Positions 35,580 to 58,554 of a DNA stretch of 64,000 nt are shown here, in pieces. Each line of letters begins with the position of its first letter. Within the stretch, counting starts at the first letter, position 1. The notes beneath the pieces were generated by a model that worked only from the letters and a program-made list of their open reading frames with translations, was not told the DNA's origin and searched no databases. This DNA is from an archaeon. Lineage in GTDB: Archaea > Thermoproteota > Nitrososphaeria > Nitrososphaerales > Gagatemarchaeaceae. The stretch is from assembly GCA_021848045.1 (NCBI GenBank), contig JAJZNC010000046.1:62001-126000 (forward strand), written 5' to 3'. The translations under genes were made by a program, and so were the position numbers.

Positions 35580-36227
35580 CTAGCCGGGGCGGTTGGAGTG
35601 CCAGTACACCGCGGAGGCGTACGCCGCGAACAGCGGGAGCAGGAGCAGGTCGTTGAGGGGCGTCACCGCCTCCGCGAACCAGAACGTCGCAAACGCCAGC
35701 AGGAGCCCGGAGACGGCCACCTTCACCTGCGCCTGCTTCAACCTCCTCACACGGCTCCGCAGGGCGTAGGTCGAGGCGACGACCACCACAGCCCCGCCTG
35801 CCATCCCCAACACCGTGGGGTCGAAGCCGTTGGGCAGGAGCCCGACCAGGACGATAGCAGCCTCGAACGCCTCTACCGCCCCGACGGAGAAGGCCGTGAC
35901 TAGGGCCCCCTTCTCGAAGCCTTCCGCGTGCGCCGACCCTTTCCTGGAGGCCAGGACAGCCCGCCTGGCGCTCATCGCCAGCCTCCTCCCGAAGTAGAGC
36001 AGGAGAACTCCCCCAGTGAGCCTCACAAGGACCGCGGGGAGGAGTGCGATCATCGCCCCGATGGCGAACATCGGGGCGAAGACCACGGCCGCCCCGAGAG
36101 CCGCGTAGGGGAAGACCATGTGCCTTCCCGAGTGGGCGTAGAGCGTCAGGGCGACTGCCGAGGCCTCGACCATCTCGAGGGTCGTGATCCCGAGGGCCGC
36201 GAAGAAGATGGCAAGGTCGGAGAGCAA
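35580..36227 (-). CDS. Six-helix membrane protein with two acidic helix motifs
   Basis: The 215-residue protein has about six membrane helices arranged as two halves. Helix 1 (AALGITTLEMVEASAVALTLYA) and the matching helix of the second half (AFSVGAVEAFEAAIVLVGLLP) both carry an E-x2-E-A pattern, as in cation/ion transporters of the inverted-repeat type. It resembles the uncharacterised predicted membrane proteins of COG4280. Transported ion unknown. Start is TTG. Confidence 0.7.
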   Translation of the reverse strand: MLSDLAIFFAALGITTLEMVEASAVALTLYAHSGRHMVFPYAALGAAVVFAPMFAIGAMIALLPAVLVRLTGGVLLLYFGRRLAMSARRAVLASRKGSAHAEGFEKGALVTAFSVGAVEAFEAAIVLVGLLPNGFDPTVLGMAGGAVVVVASTYALRSRVRRLKQAQVKVAVSGLLLAFATFWFAEAVTPLNDLLLLPLFAAYASAVYWHSNRPG

Positions 36228-36949: not shown

Positions 36950-36961
36950 TAGCACTATATA
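36950..36961 (+). promoter_or_regulatory. TATA box of the redox operon
   Basis: GCACTATATACG is centred ~28 nt before GTG 36984. This decides the start of the first gene, since the track start at 36915 lies upstream of the box. Confidence 0.6.
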
Positions 36962-36983: not shown

Positions 36984-37319
36984 GTGATTCAACGGCTCTC
37001 GCTCATATCTGTCCTGAGCCTCGTCGCGCTCGCCGCGATAGGCCTCGTTGCTGTGGAGACGCATGGCTTCGGCGTGACGAGCCAGGCCTCACCCCAGGTA
37101 CTCCCAGCCTCGCCCCTAGCGGGGCCCTCGGGCTCGCACACGACGACCGTCCAGACGACCGTAGTCGTCACGATGACCAACTCGACTAGCCTGCCCGCCT
37201 CGTCGAGCGGCGCCGCCGCCGTGACCCCGGCGGGCTCGCTCCTGACCACTTCCCCGCCAGCCTCCAAGTCCAGCTCGGACGACGGAAGCAGCGCAGGCGG
37301 GGACGGCTCGGGCGACTAG
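36984..37319 (+). CDS. Ser/Thr-rich exported protein heading the redox operon
   Basis: With the GTG 36984 start the protein has 111 residues: a single N-terminal hydrophobic segment (RLSLISVLSLVALAAIGLVAVET), then a Ser/Thr/Pro/Ala-rich stretch containing TTTVQTTVVVTMTNSTS, ending in SSDDGSSAGGDGSGD. It has no folded-domain signature and is probably a heavily glycosylatable surface anchor or spacer. The next gene begins 44 nt downstream. The link to the Rieske protein is inferred from operon position. Confidence 0.6.
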   Translation: MIQRLSLISVLSLVALAAIGLVAVETHGFGVTSQASPQVLPASPLAGPSGSHTTTVQTTVVVTMTNSTSLPASSSGAAAVTPAGSLLTTSPPASKSSSDDGSSAGGDGSGD

Positions 37320-37362
37320 GTCATCCGCAGGACTAGGTCGGACGCGCCTGCTCGGGGGGCTC

Positions 37363-37860
37363 TTGACGACTCTCGCCTTCGAGGTGGGCGACGCGGCCGG
37401 GTTCCTGGCCCTGATAATGGTCGGGGCCTCCTCGACGTTCATGCTGGTGCGTTCGAGGGTCTTGAAGGTCACCAGAAACCTAGCCGCTGTGAGGGCAGCC
37501 CATGTCACCATCTCGGTGCTCGCCGGGGTGTTCATGATAGTCCACGTCAGCCTCCTCTTCCTCCCGCCCACGACCACGGCGGTCGACCTGGGCTACCTGT
37601 CGGTGGGCGTCGCGGCGGTGGTCTGGCTTACAGGGACGGCCTTCCTCGAGCGCCTGCGAGACTCGCTCTTCTTCCACAGCACGCTGGCGACGGTCCTCGT
37701 CGGCCTGATCATGGTCCACGCCGCGACCTCCAGCCTCGAGATGCCTTCGCTCCTGTCCCAGGGGATGCTCGCGACCACCGTGATGATCATGCTCGCCAAC
37801 GCGGCCTACCAGTACAGGAGGGCTTTCGCCCGCCCGTCGCTCGGCGCTGCATCCGGGTGA
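37363..37860 (+). CDS. Four-to-five-helix membrane protein with paired histidines (b-type cytochrome-like)
   Basis: The 165-residue protein has two helices that each carry two histidines spaced 13-14 residues apart: AAHVTISVLAGVFMIVHVSLLF and FFHSTLATVLVGLIMVHAAT. That geometry can ligate two stacked hemes, as in ferric-reductase/YedZ-like or cytochrome b561-like domains. It ends 4 nt before the Rieske gene, so a heme b/Rieske membrane complex is plausible. TTG 37363 is a tentative start; the frame is open further upstream. Confidence 0.75.
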   Translation: MTTLAFEVGDAAGFLALIMVGASSTFMLVRSRVLKVTRNLAAVRAAHVTISVLAGVFMIVHVSLLFLPPTTTAVDLGYLSVGVAAVVWLTGTAFLERLRDSLFFHSTLATVLVGLIMVHAATSSLEMPSLLSQGMLATTVMIMLANAAYQYRRAFARPSLGAASG

Positions 37861-37864
37861 TCGG

Positions 37865-38425
37865 ATGGGCGGCGGACGGAGGGAGTTCATACGAAGGATC
37901 GCCGCCGGGTCAGGGCTGCTCGCAGTCGGGGTCCTGGGCGCTTGGGGGCTGGTCCAAAAGTCGCTGGGGGGCGGGACAGGACAGGCGCCCCAGACGCTAC
38001 CCTCACCGAACGGGGCTGCTGGGCAAGGAGTCACATCCACCGAGACCGTCACGGTGACGGAGTATGCTTCGGGGTCAGGCGCGCAGTCGTCCCAGGCGGC
38101 CAGCTCGGCGTCTCAGTCTGTCCCGGGCGGGTATTTCCTGGTCACGCCGCTCAGCGCCCTCGCCGGGCGCACCTCCGCATACTTCAACCACCCGACTCGG
38201 GGGCTCTCGATCCTGGTCAGCCTCTCGAGCGGGTGGCATGCCTTCAGCGCCGTCTGCACGCACGCGGGCTGTACCGTGCAGTACACGGGGACCACCATCC
38301 TGTGTCCATGCCACAACGGGACGTTCAATCCTGCCAACGGGGCTGTCACCGGAGGCCCTCCACCGGCGCCGCTCCCCGAGATGACAGTGCTCGTCTCTAA
38401 TGGGGACCTGTACGTGTCAGGGTAG
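37865..38425 (+). CDS. Rieske [2Fe-2S] protein with Tat signal anchor
   Basis: The 186-residue protein starts MGGGRREFIRRIAAGSGLLAVGVLGAWGL, a twin-arginine signal with a long uncleaved-type helix, followed by a Ser/Thr/Gln-rich linker (~40-90). The cluster ligands are in CTHAGC (131-136) and CPCHNG (147-152). It would face the cell exterior and carry electrons to or from the preceding histidine-rich membrane protein. Lacking a full cytochrome bc1-type cytochrome b nearby, it is not an obvious bc1 subunit. A TatA gene is at 47770. Confidence 0.92.
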   Translation: MGGGRREFIRRIAAGSGLLAVGVLGAWGLVQKSLGGGTGQAPQTLPSPNGAAGQGVTSTETVTVTEYASGSGAQSSQAASSASQSVPGGYFLVTPLSALAGRTSAYFNHPTRGLSILVSLSSGWHAFSAVCTHAGCTVQYTGTTILCPCHNGTFNPANGAVTGGPPPAPLPEMTVLVSNGDLYVSG

Positions 38426-38504
38426 CGGCCTGCCCTTCCTCGCGGGGCCGGGGCGTCGAAGACTTGGCGGGGGCCTGCAGTCCACAGGGACAGTCAACAA
38501 CTAG

Positions 38505-38633
38505 GTGCAGCCGGTGGCGTCGACATCGGGCCTGCTGACACCCCCGGCGGTATTCGGGATATTCGCACAGGTCGCGTTCCCCCTCGTAATAGCCGTCGGA
38601 GGGTCGCTGGCCCTCTTCCTGAGGGCTCGCTGA
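38505..38633 (+). CDS. 42-residue single-helix membrane peptide after the Rieske gene
   Basis: This frame is below the ORF-track cutoff. It starts GTG 38505 and encodes a peptide with one clear membrane helix, PAVFGIFAQVAFPLVIAVGGSLALFL, ended by RAR. Codon use matches its G+C-rich neighbours. It lies 79 nt after the Rieske gene in the same direction, and small single-helix subunits are common in Rieske/cytochrome complexes. No family is recognised. Confidence 0.5.
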   Translation: MQPVASTSGLLTPPAVFGIFAQVAFPLVIAVGGSLALFLRAR

Positions 38634-39706: not shown

Positions 39707-40114
39707 TCAGAATATTCTCTTTACTTCGGGCAATTTATCAAAATCCATGTCATTCGAGTATATTTCCGAAATCTTCATTCTCTTCATTTGCGCCCCTATG
39801 ACTAGGTCATCCCATTCACGCCAGTCAAAGCTGTATTTGGCTTGCATGTCTCTCGCTTCCTCGAAGTCTAGAATCGAAGTCTCAATCTTTTCCAACGACG
39901 TGAGCTTCTTCAGCAAAGACAGGCACACTGGTATCACAGATTGCCTCCTCTTCCACTTCAAGTAGCCACAAACTTGAGTTACCACCAGCGTGGAGGTTGC
40001 CGCAAGCTCCCCTCGCTCGATTGAGCTTAGTATTTCGGTCGCTCTCTTCCCGTAATTGGGGTCACCCGCGAAATGATAGACGAAGACATTCGAGTCAACA
40101 AAACGTGCTGTCAT
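39707..40114 (-). CDS. vapC: VapC-type PIN-domain toxin
   Basis: The 135-residue protein has the PIN fold acidic residues: FVDSNVFVYH at the start, E in the middle helices, DWREWDDLVIGAQMKR and the last YSNDMDFDKL. VapC toxins are Mg-dependent RNases that cut tRNA or rRNA. The ATG overlaps the antitoxin stop by 4 nt. Base composition is much less G+C-rich than the surrounding backbone, consistent with transfer. Confidence 0.92.
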   Translation of the reverse strand: MTARFVDSNVFVYHFAGDPNYGKRATEILSSIERGELAATSTLVVTQVCGYLKWKRRQSVIPVCLSLLKKLTSLEKIETSILDFEEARDMQAKYSFDWREWDDLVIGAQMKRMKISEIYSNDMDFDKLPEVKRIF

Positions 40115-40329
40115 TCTTTTCCTGGGGCCTCCTCAATGTCTTCCAGATTCACTTTGCCTATTTTCGCGATGCCCTCTGTTGATTTCACTGAAACTCTTTC
40201 CTTCGGCTTGAGGAGAATAGCCTGCCCGGAGAGTTCTACGTAGAACGAGTCCCCCTCTTTGATTCCCAATGTCCTTCGGATTTTCTCAGGAAGTGTTATG
40301 CGCCCCTTGTCGCGGACCTTTGATTCCAT
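40111..40329 (-). CDS. vapB: AbrB-type (SpoVT/MazE-like) antitoxin
   Basis: The 72-residue protein reads MESKVRDKGRITLPEKIRRTLGIKEGDSFYVELSGQAILLKP, a swapped-hairpin AbrB DNA-binding domain, followed by a tail that would wrap the toxin. I chose ATG 40329, because the TATA element (plus-strand TACGATATATAGG, 40359-40371) falls inside the longer track ORF. It should neutralise the PIN toxin encoded next to it and repress the pair. Confidence 0.9.
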   Translation of the reverse strand: MESKVRDKGRITLPEKIRRTLGIKEGDSFYVELSGQAILLKPKERVSVKSTEGIAKIGKVNLEDIEEAPGKE

Positions 40330-40397
40330 TCTATACGCCCACTTTAAAGTGGGAATATGTACGATATATAGGTTGCGGCGGTCTATGCCAACAATGG

Positions 40398-40432
40398 ATG
40401 CGGGGCGAACATCGCACTTTAGGTTCAAATCG
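40398..40432 (+). repeat. tRNA-Leu flank repeat, copy 2 (partial)
   Basis: ATGCGGGGCGAACATCGCAC followed by TTTAGGTTCAAATCG resembles copies 1 and 3 without the upstream part. It lies just upstream of the vapBC promoter. Confidence 0.55.
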
Positions 40433-57444: not shown

Positions 57445-58554
57445 TCAGCAGGGCGTGGTCCCGACGGTGCCCGTAGGGAAGATATTGCCAGAGGCGTCGA
57501 CGTTCAGTGTGACAGACGGAAGGGGGAGGTATGCCGGCCCGCGGACGACGTTCCCATGCGAGTCGTACTCTGACCCATGGCACGGACAGAAGAACCTGAT
57601 TCCGGAGCCCTGCTCGAACGTCAGCTCGCAGCAGACGTGCGTGCAAAGGAGGCTGTACGCGGCGAGGGTCCCGTCGCCCCTCATGAAGAGGATGTCCGGG
57701 AACCCACGAGGGTACTCGAAGGTCAGGTAGGCGCCGGGCTGGATGTCGTTGGTGTTGGCTATCGCCCCGGCTGGCAGCGAGGGGCCACTCGGTCGGGCGC
57801 CCCTGGACGACGACGAAGTCGAGCTTCCCGGCGGAGGGGGTGGCGGCAGCTTGATCGACCCCAGGACCACCCCGACCCCTATCAGCGCCCCGAACTCGGC
57901 CATCCTCCTCACAAAGTTCCTCCTCGAGAAGCCAAGCTCCTTCCCCTCCTGCCTCCTGACCGCGAGCGACTGCGCATATCCCCTGCCGAAGACGCCGAGC
58001 ACGAGGACGAAGCCCTGAAGCACGAGCTGGGCGTCGAAGGCCGCCAGCCCGAAGAGGTATCGCGCGAAGTAGGGCATCGTCATGTCGTACTGGGGCGCAG
58101 TTGTGATGTCGCCCAGCTGGAGCGCCACTCCGAGGAGCGCGCAGGCCATCGTCGCCAGGTACACCCTCTTCGACCCAGCCAGGTTCATCAGCCCGAGCGC
58201 GATGTCGAGCACGACGATCACCGTGAGGCCTATGGCGTGAGAGATCGCGAGGTGCCAGAGAGAGCCGTCTGTCGCGAGCAGATAGCCGCCCGACGTCGCC
58301 GAAAGCAGCATCGCGAAGCCCATGACGAGCTGGAGGATCCTCAGCCGCGAGAGCGCCCTCTCGTATCTGCGGCGCCTCTTGGACGCGCCGCTGCTCGAGC
58401 TCCCCTTGCCTGCCCCCGTGGGGTCATTCGGCCCCTCGTCCTCCGTCGGGGGCGCCGCACCTCCGGTGGCTCGTATCTCTATCCTAGGGAACCTCGCAGC
58501 GACGCTGGCCTCTATCCAGTCTTCACCAGCCCCTTCGACCTGGGTCATCTTCAC
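57445..58554 (-). CDS. Fusion of a four-helix membrane domain with a Tat-linked Rieske domain
   Basis: The 369-residue protein has a polar, possibly cytosolic N terminus (to ~60), four membrane helices (~72-190, with WHLAISHAIGL), then GFSRRNFVRRMAEFGALIGVGVVLGSIKLPPPPPPG, i.e. an internal twin-arginine motif (211-212) and a fifth helix, and a C-terminal Rieske domain with CTHVCC (304-309) and CPCHGS (from 323). The second Rieske loop residue is Cys where Gly is usual (CTHxGC). It would be an electron carrier anchored by its own membrane domain. No bc1 genes are nearby. Confidence 0.88.
   Translation of the reverse strand: MKMTQVEGAGEDWIEASVAARFPRIEIRATGGAAPPTEDEGPNDPTGAGKGSSSSGASKRRRRYERALSRLRILQLVMGFAMLLSATSGGYLLATDGSLWHLAISHAIGLTVIVVLDIALGLMNLAGSKRVYLATMACALLGVALQLGDITTAPQYDMTMPYFARYLFGLAAFDAQLVLQGFVLVLGVFGRGYAQSLAVRRQEGKELGFSRRNFVRRMAEFGALIGVGVVLGSIKLPPPPPPGSSTSSSSRGARPSGPSLPAGAIANTNDIQPGAYLTFEYPRGFPDILFMRGDGTLAAYSLLCTHVCCELTFEQGSGIRFFCPCHGSEYDSHGNVVRGPAYLPLPSVTLNVDASGNIFPTGTVGTTPC

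Follow-up and report, generated by a model that had tools for sequence, protein, structure and literature searches.

The 64,000-nucleotide stretch of DNA analysed here (the window; contig JAJZNC010000046.1) belongs to an archaeal genome of 1.6 Mb that is 88% complete, and carries on its forward strand three genes spanning positions 36984–38425, with intergenic gaps of 43 and 4 bases. Gene 1 (36984–37319) encodes a protein of 111 aa that is rich in Ser and Thr and has a single helix, at its N-terminus, and a putatively external tail ending in DDG/GGD. It is followed by gene 2 (37363–37860), which encodes a 165-aa membrane protein of five long predicted helices and is a probable di-heme cytochrome, and by gene 3 (37865–38425), which encodes a 186-aa Rieske [2Fe-2S] protein with a twin-arginine N-terminus. 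A reading of the same DNA made from its letters alone (the sequence-only reading) had placed one promoter ahead of the set. Indeed, a TATA-like element, TATATA, lies at 36956–36961 (+), 28 bases 5' of the GTG start codon of gene 1 at 36984 (-28 to -23). Several homologous genes, most clearly those of L034–L040, have AT-rich or TATA-like boxes similarly spaced from their alignment-predicted start, which makes both the start codon and the promoter of gene 1 credible; the box-to-start distance also suggests that the transcript is probably leaderless. Further along, at 39707–40428 on the reverse strand, two adjoining PIN-like and AbrB-like proteins probably form a toxin-antitoxin pair of the VapBC type; they lie at the border of a region in which the G+C content is reduced (0.53 versus about 0.66).

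The sequence-only reading had added a fourth member, a hidden 42-aa subunit encoded by a hydrophobic open reading frame (ORF) at 38505–38633 (+). We found no counterpart for it downstream of the sister cassettes, where no short same-strand ORF for a hydrophobic peptide was present in the stretch searched. A search of 61 genomes gave weak matches (E = 0.0015 for the best one from another genome), and the matches inspected turned out to be unrelated frames or ordinary proteins. Its codon score is 12.6, and of 572 shadow ORFs of comparable length, 30 (about 5%) score at least as high, which is not decisive. The ORF may be translated, but as a subunit it was rejected because it is not conserved, and we place it outside the cassette.

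For the three remaining genes, we examined how widely they occur together. A homologue of gene 2 was present in 19 of the 101 genomes searched as relatives (the host genome included), and among 201 genomes of the order, a gene 2 profile found 22 with a match, confined to two families (f1 and f9). A sample of 398 genomes from the phylum yielded no further case, and a plasmid search with gene 2 gave no match; bacterial genome collections were sampled by one peptide-pattern scan, and the narrow known distribution holds within that sampling. Gene neighbourhoods were read from 20 longer stretches plus shorter loci. In 14 homologous loci from two families of this one archaeal order (L032, L033, L034, L035, L036/L037, L038, L039, L040, L041, L042, L043, L049, L051 and L083), the gene immediately downstream of that for the membrane protein encodes a Rieske protein; the near-identical L036 and L037 are counted as one. 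In 12 of these 14, a homologue of gene 1 (hereafter, the anchor) lies directly upstream; it is missing next to gene 2 in L049 and L051. At a further locus, L031, anchor and Rieske occur within the same cluster, about 2 kb on. The apparent absence of a Rieske gene beside several homologues proved to be an artefact of an over-strict motif (C-x-H-x-G-C), since a looser search found the Rieske there. These loci come from related genomes, so that the counts are non-independent, and the tree sets them on several deep branches. The recurring neighbours, together with the invariant histidines described below, exclude chance for genes 1–3: the three-gene redox cassette is real and conserved, with a narrow known distribution, and the gene order proposed earlier holds for three of its four members. 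The cassette also occurs in SubAcS15-15, a genome listed among the Gagatemarchaeaceae in a genome paper on that family, which makes no mention of Rieske proteins (PMC10640624). The host genome is probably a member of the same acid-soil family of Thaumarchaeota. Literature searches for a membrane protein/Rieske pair of this kind returned nothing relevant, and the cassette is apparently undescribed. The record that holds L031 is titled Deltaproteobacteria (palsa_1115); the close relatives of its cassette are found only in Thaumarchaeota, and it is likely a misbinned archaeal contig.

The membrane protein encoded by gene 2 contains two histidine pairs of identical spacing, H47-x13-H61 and H105-x13-H119. 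In the alignment of 23 gene 2 proteins (the host's included), all four histidines are invariant, as are G13, P69, G77, Y78 and G91, which bears out the earlier remark that the protein has two histidine pairs suited to hemes. We therefore consider gene 2 to be probably a di-heme b-type cytochrome. By the positive-inside rule, the loops after its first and third helices should be cytoplasmic and its N-terminus outside, so that each pair would have its first histidine close to the cytoplasmic face of the membrane and its second close to the outer face. With one inner and one outer histidine per pair, the two predicted hemes would be stacked across the membrane, an arrangement seen in cytochrome b and in ferric-reductase-like proteins. 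The protein matches no Pfam family above its cut-off. It scores 11.9 bits with DUF4405 (PF14358), for which the cut-off is 26.7. Among the 23 members, weak matches were seen to DUF4405 in 10 (best 2e-5) and to Ni_hydr_CYTB in 9 (best 7e-4), while Ferric_reduct (PF01794) matched 3 with a best E of 0.05 and had no match in the host genome. Considering that DUF4405 also matches both true cytochrome b genes of the host genome, a match to it is the sign of a motif and not of a family. Two AlphaFold models of middling confidence (pLDDT 79 and 78) found nothing significant in a fold search against the PDB, csNOX5 appearing only at E = 2.9, and a PDB sequence search with the membrane profile returned only chance matches to light-harvesting chains. 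The PF01794 layout has six helices with the histidine pairs on helices 3 and 5, and gene 2 would fit it if gene 1 supplied helix 1, with the fold match being non-significant.

Gene 1 probably does supply that helix. Seven gene 2 homologues carry an extra N-terminal helix and form one clade (support 100/99), which includes a paralogue in the host genome itself (contig C31, L053:9237–9812), and at none of the seven loci is there an adjacent Rieske gene. The members of this clade are solo six-helix proteins. Their fused N-terminal helix and the separate anchor helix share a pattern, consisting of a basic start, L...S and often an NPF end. A profile of the fused helix gave 28.3 bits on the anchor of L031, 20.2 on that of L033, 18.7 on L042, 17.5 on L032 and 11.4 on L041, against a background maximum of 8.8 bits, taken from 93 other proteins with an N-terminal helix (511 start positions). 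Scores were lower, between 1.9 and 9.6 bits, for the genus g7 anchors and for the window anchor, which itself reached 6.4 and is under the background maximum; these anchors are tied to helix 1 because they resemble the other ones. When the profiles of anchor and fused helix were forced to align end to end, P was 2.8e-5 at a probability of only 48%. The profile scores led us to replace the view of gene 1 as an unrelated surface protein: it is probably what was once helix 1 of the membrane protein, now a separate product extended by a long external tail. With this tail and the N-terminus of gene 2 both predicted to be outside, the two products look as expected if a six-helix protein had been interrupted in the external loop that joins its helices 1 and 2. 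Of the "Ser/Thr-rich surface anchor" in the sequence-only reading, the Ser/Thr-rich single helix thus stands, while the part it plays is apparently that of a split-off helix 1, as five anchors at 11.4–28.3 bits suggest. Family f9 has yet another, third kind of gene 2 homologue (L048:2724–3334 and L082), which is followed immediately by a single-helix peptide of about 35 aa (MKRGELLWRLVSIAVFLATFAIAILLLYQMIQTFG in L048), the sequence of which is unrelated to that of the 42-aa ORF.

The anchor tails in L031, L033 and L043 end in HHHH, HHHHDDG or DDGG and could bind metal. Several tails with such endings could also belong to a metalloreductase or metal sensor, in which they would bind iron or copper and the unit would reduce the metal for uptake by OFeT_1, a ferrous iron/lead permease encoded at 35580–36227 (-) in the window (PF16955, E = 7.5e-43). 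This permease lies near the cassette only in the window, where it is on the opposite strand, and was not seen beside the sister cassettes; known ferric reductases, moreover, require no Rieske protein. We therefore regard a metal-reducing role as very improbable.

The product of gene 3 is more readily assigned. Its Rieske domain matches PF00355 above the cut-off (E = 1.2e-9), and its profile matches solved Rieske structures (best 5.6e-18). The cluster ligands C131, H133, C147 and H150 are kept in all 12 aligned Rieske proteins, and the disulphide cysteines C136/C149 keep their position in 11. The exception is L031 (7958–8590), in which both cysteines are lost together, to Tyr and Leu; a degenerate protein was rejected here, as all four ligands are intact and the disulphide pair alone is gone. 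The N-terminus carries RREFIRR, with R5 and R6 invariant in 12/12, and precedes a hydrophobic stretch. The TIGR01409 score of 13.9 bits is below the cut-off of 16.7, so that the Tat assignment is by motif; in this form, the Tat-exported Rieske protein proposed earlier stands. In none of the 12 proteins are the residues present that raise the cluster potential, Ser(+2) and Tyr(+4), their places being taken by Gly/Ala and Phe; the other inspected Rieske proteins of the host genome (on contigs C30 and C45, and at 57.4 kb in the window) keep both. In yeast, loss of the Ser and of the Tyr costs about 130 and 65 mV, roughly additively (PMC12954380; compare PMC3758308). Based on these costs, a potential near +100 mV is expected for the cluster of gene 3, with caution due to an anammox Rieske protein that has the Phe but keeps the Ser, and shows +335 mV (PMC12954380).

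The two Rieske proteins on C30 and C45 are part of canonical Rieske-cytochrome b pairs, and the only two PF00033 matches in the host genome are found there; neither gene 2 nor its homologues match PF00033. The earlier statement that there is no bc1-type cytochrome b is thus right for these 1.6 kb, but not for the genome, which has two ordinary Rieske-cytochrome b operons. In other words, the cassette is an additional system rather than a substitute. These observations bear on whether it could be a minimal quinol-oxidising Rieske/cytochrome b complex, in which the HX13H helices would be a cut-down cytochrome b and the Rieske protein would take one of the bifurcated electrons at a Qo-like site, as in bc1. 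The same two-pair HX13H layout with a Rieske partner, the disulphide type of that partner and the cytochrome b-type profile hints (DUF4405, Ni_hydr_CYTB) would suit such a complex. Against it, no Cytochrome_B match was found among the gene 2 members, and a profile comparison of the gene 2 family with cytochrome b gave no match; nor does a C-terminal cytochrome b half lie nearby. Besides the loss of Ser and Tyr, the Leu that follows the ligand His in bc1 (CTHLGC) is replaced by Ala, Arg or Gln, and two canonical complexes are already present in the genome. We consider a reduced bc1 unlikely.

A second Rieske protein bears on the direction in which electrons would flow. The window encodes, at 57445–58554 (-), a protein of 369 aa (Rieske B) that combines a twin-arginine motif and some four helices with a Rieske domain at its C-terminus, and this domain has the Ser/Tyr signature of the high-potential type. 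Homologues of this protein adjoin the cassette in L031, L033 and L043, and in L043 the open frame of Rieske B starts 4 bases beyond the end of the cassette Rieske (Rieske A). Electrons might accordingly run inward or sideways, with Rieske A taking them from an external donor or exchanging them with Rieske B, and the hemes delivering them to quinone or to a cytoplasmic acceptor. The presence of both Rieske genes on the same contig in the window is consistent with this, but they lie 19 kb apart there, and Rieske B is missing beside most cassettes. An inward or sideways path therefore receives little weight from us.

We favor outward transfer through a transmembrane unit, to which we assign a probability of roughly 60%. 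Gene 1 would supply helix 1, with its N-terminus inside, and the long external tail; gene 2 would supply helices 2–6 with two stacked b hemes, an inner one at H47/H105 and an outer one at H61/H119; and gene 3 would be the Tat-exported Rieske protein on the outside. Electrons would enter from quinol or from a cytoplasmic donor, cross the two hemes and reduce the low-potential Rieske cluster, which would then hand them to an external acceptor. The unit would in this way work like MsrQ-MsrP, with the Rieske protein taking the place of MsrP. Speaking for an electron-transfer unit are the invariant histidines, the gene neighbours, the Rieske-less fused clade, the helix-1 scores, the cytochrome b-type matches, and the kept ligands with loss of Ser and Tyr. 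On the other side stand the lack of a gene 2 family above cut-off and of a significant fold match, the 6.4 bits of the window anchor, the missing anchors in L049 and L051, and the relatedness of the genomes. What the sequence-only reading had called a minimal, possibly undescribed membrane electron-transfer complex thus survives as a three-gene redox cassette, based on its conservation and on our finding no description of it, but loses the 42-aa peptide and the organism without a bc complex.

To our knowledge, the partners known for Rieske proteins are mainly cytochrome b, arsenite oxidase and oxygenases. If true, the conserved association of a Rieske protein with a five-helix di-heme protein would be another use of the Rieske module. 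We propose only tentatively, with the odds against it, that the cassette represents a new type of transmembrane electron-transfer complex, in which the first helix of a di-heme membrane protein, with a potentially metal-binding external tail, has become a gene of its own, and in which this split coincides with the use of a low-potential Rieske partner; if so, the type is so far found in two families of one archaeal order. The split helix, if it is one, would offer a clear-cut example from nature of a membrane protein that is divided within an external loop. Since the host genome retains the undivided form as a paralogue, what the split does is directly testable. The hosts are abundant archaea of acid soils that do not oxidise ammonia but are related to ammonia oxidisers, and their electron transport is poorly known.

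Of the known systems, bc1 and b6f share with the cassette a disulphide-type Rieske protein beside a membrane protein with two HX13H helices. They differ in that the membrane protein of the cassette is no full-length cytochrome b but has 165 aa, without a match to a cytochrome b profile, in that the Rieske protein of the cassette lacks the Ser and Tyr, and in that the cassette is found besides two true bc operons. Closer in size are small six-helix archaeal proteins of DUF4405/ferric-reductase-like type (about 180 aa), in which two histidine pairs are in near register with those of gene 2 over the core; such proteins, of this length and with both pairs, are present in further families of the phylum. 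In these, helix 1 is fused, no Rieske gene was found nearby in the loci read, and the alignment is weak (P = 0.003). A pair on plasmid p3211-1 of Streptomyces sp. 3211 offers a functional parallel: a membrane protein of about 190 aa with conserved histidines, assigned to DUF6529, lies directly upstream of an exported Rieske protein. This plasmid was the one of five DUF6529 regions opened that had a Rieske gene nearby (L133:2857–3968), and we found no literature naming DUF6529. Its membrane protein has no similarity to gene 2 and a different histidine spacing, and its Rieske protein keeps the Ser. In MsrPQ (YedYZ), a heme-binding membrane protein of the ferric-reductase type feeds a Tat-exported redox protein. 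The cassette differs from it in having a Rieske protein instead of the molybdopterin protein MsrP as the partner, in having helix 1 as a separate gene, and in lacking a Ferric_reduct match above cut-off. Still, it shares with MsrPQ the design of a small heme membrane protein that would feed a Tat-exported redox protein, and by mechanism this is the system that the cassette would most resemble.
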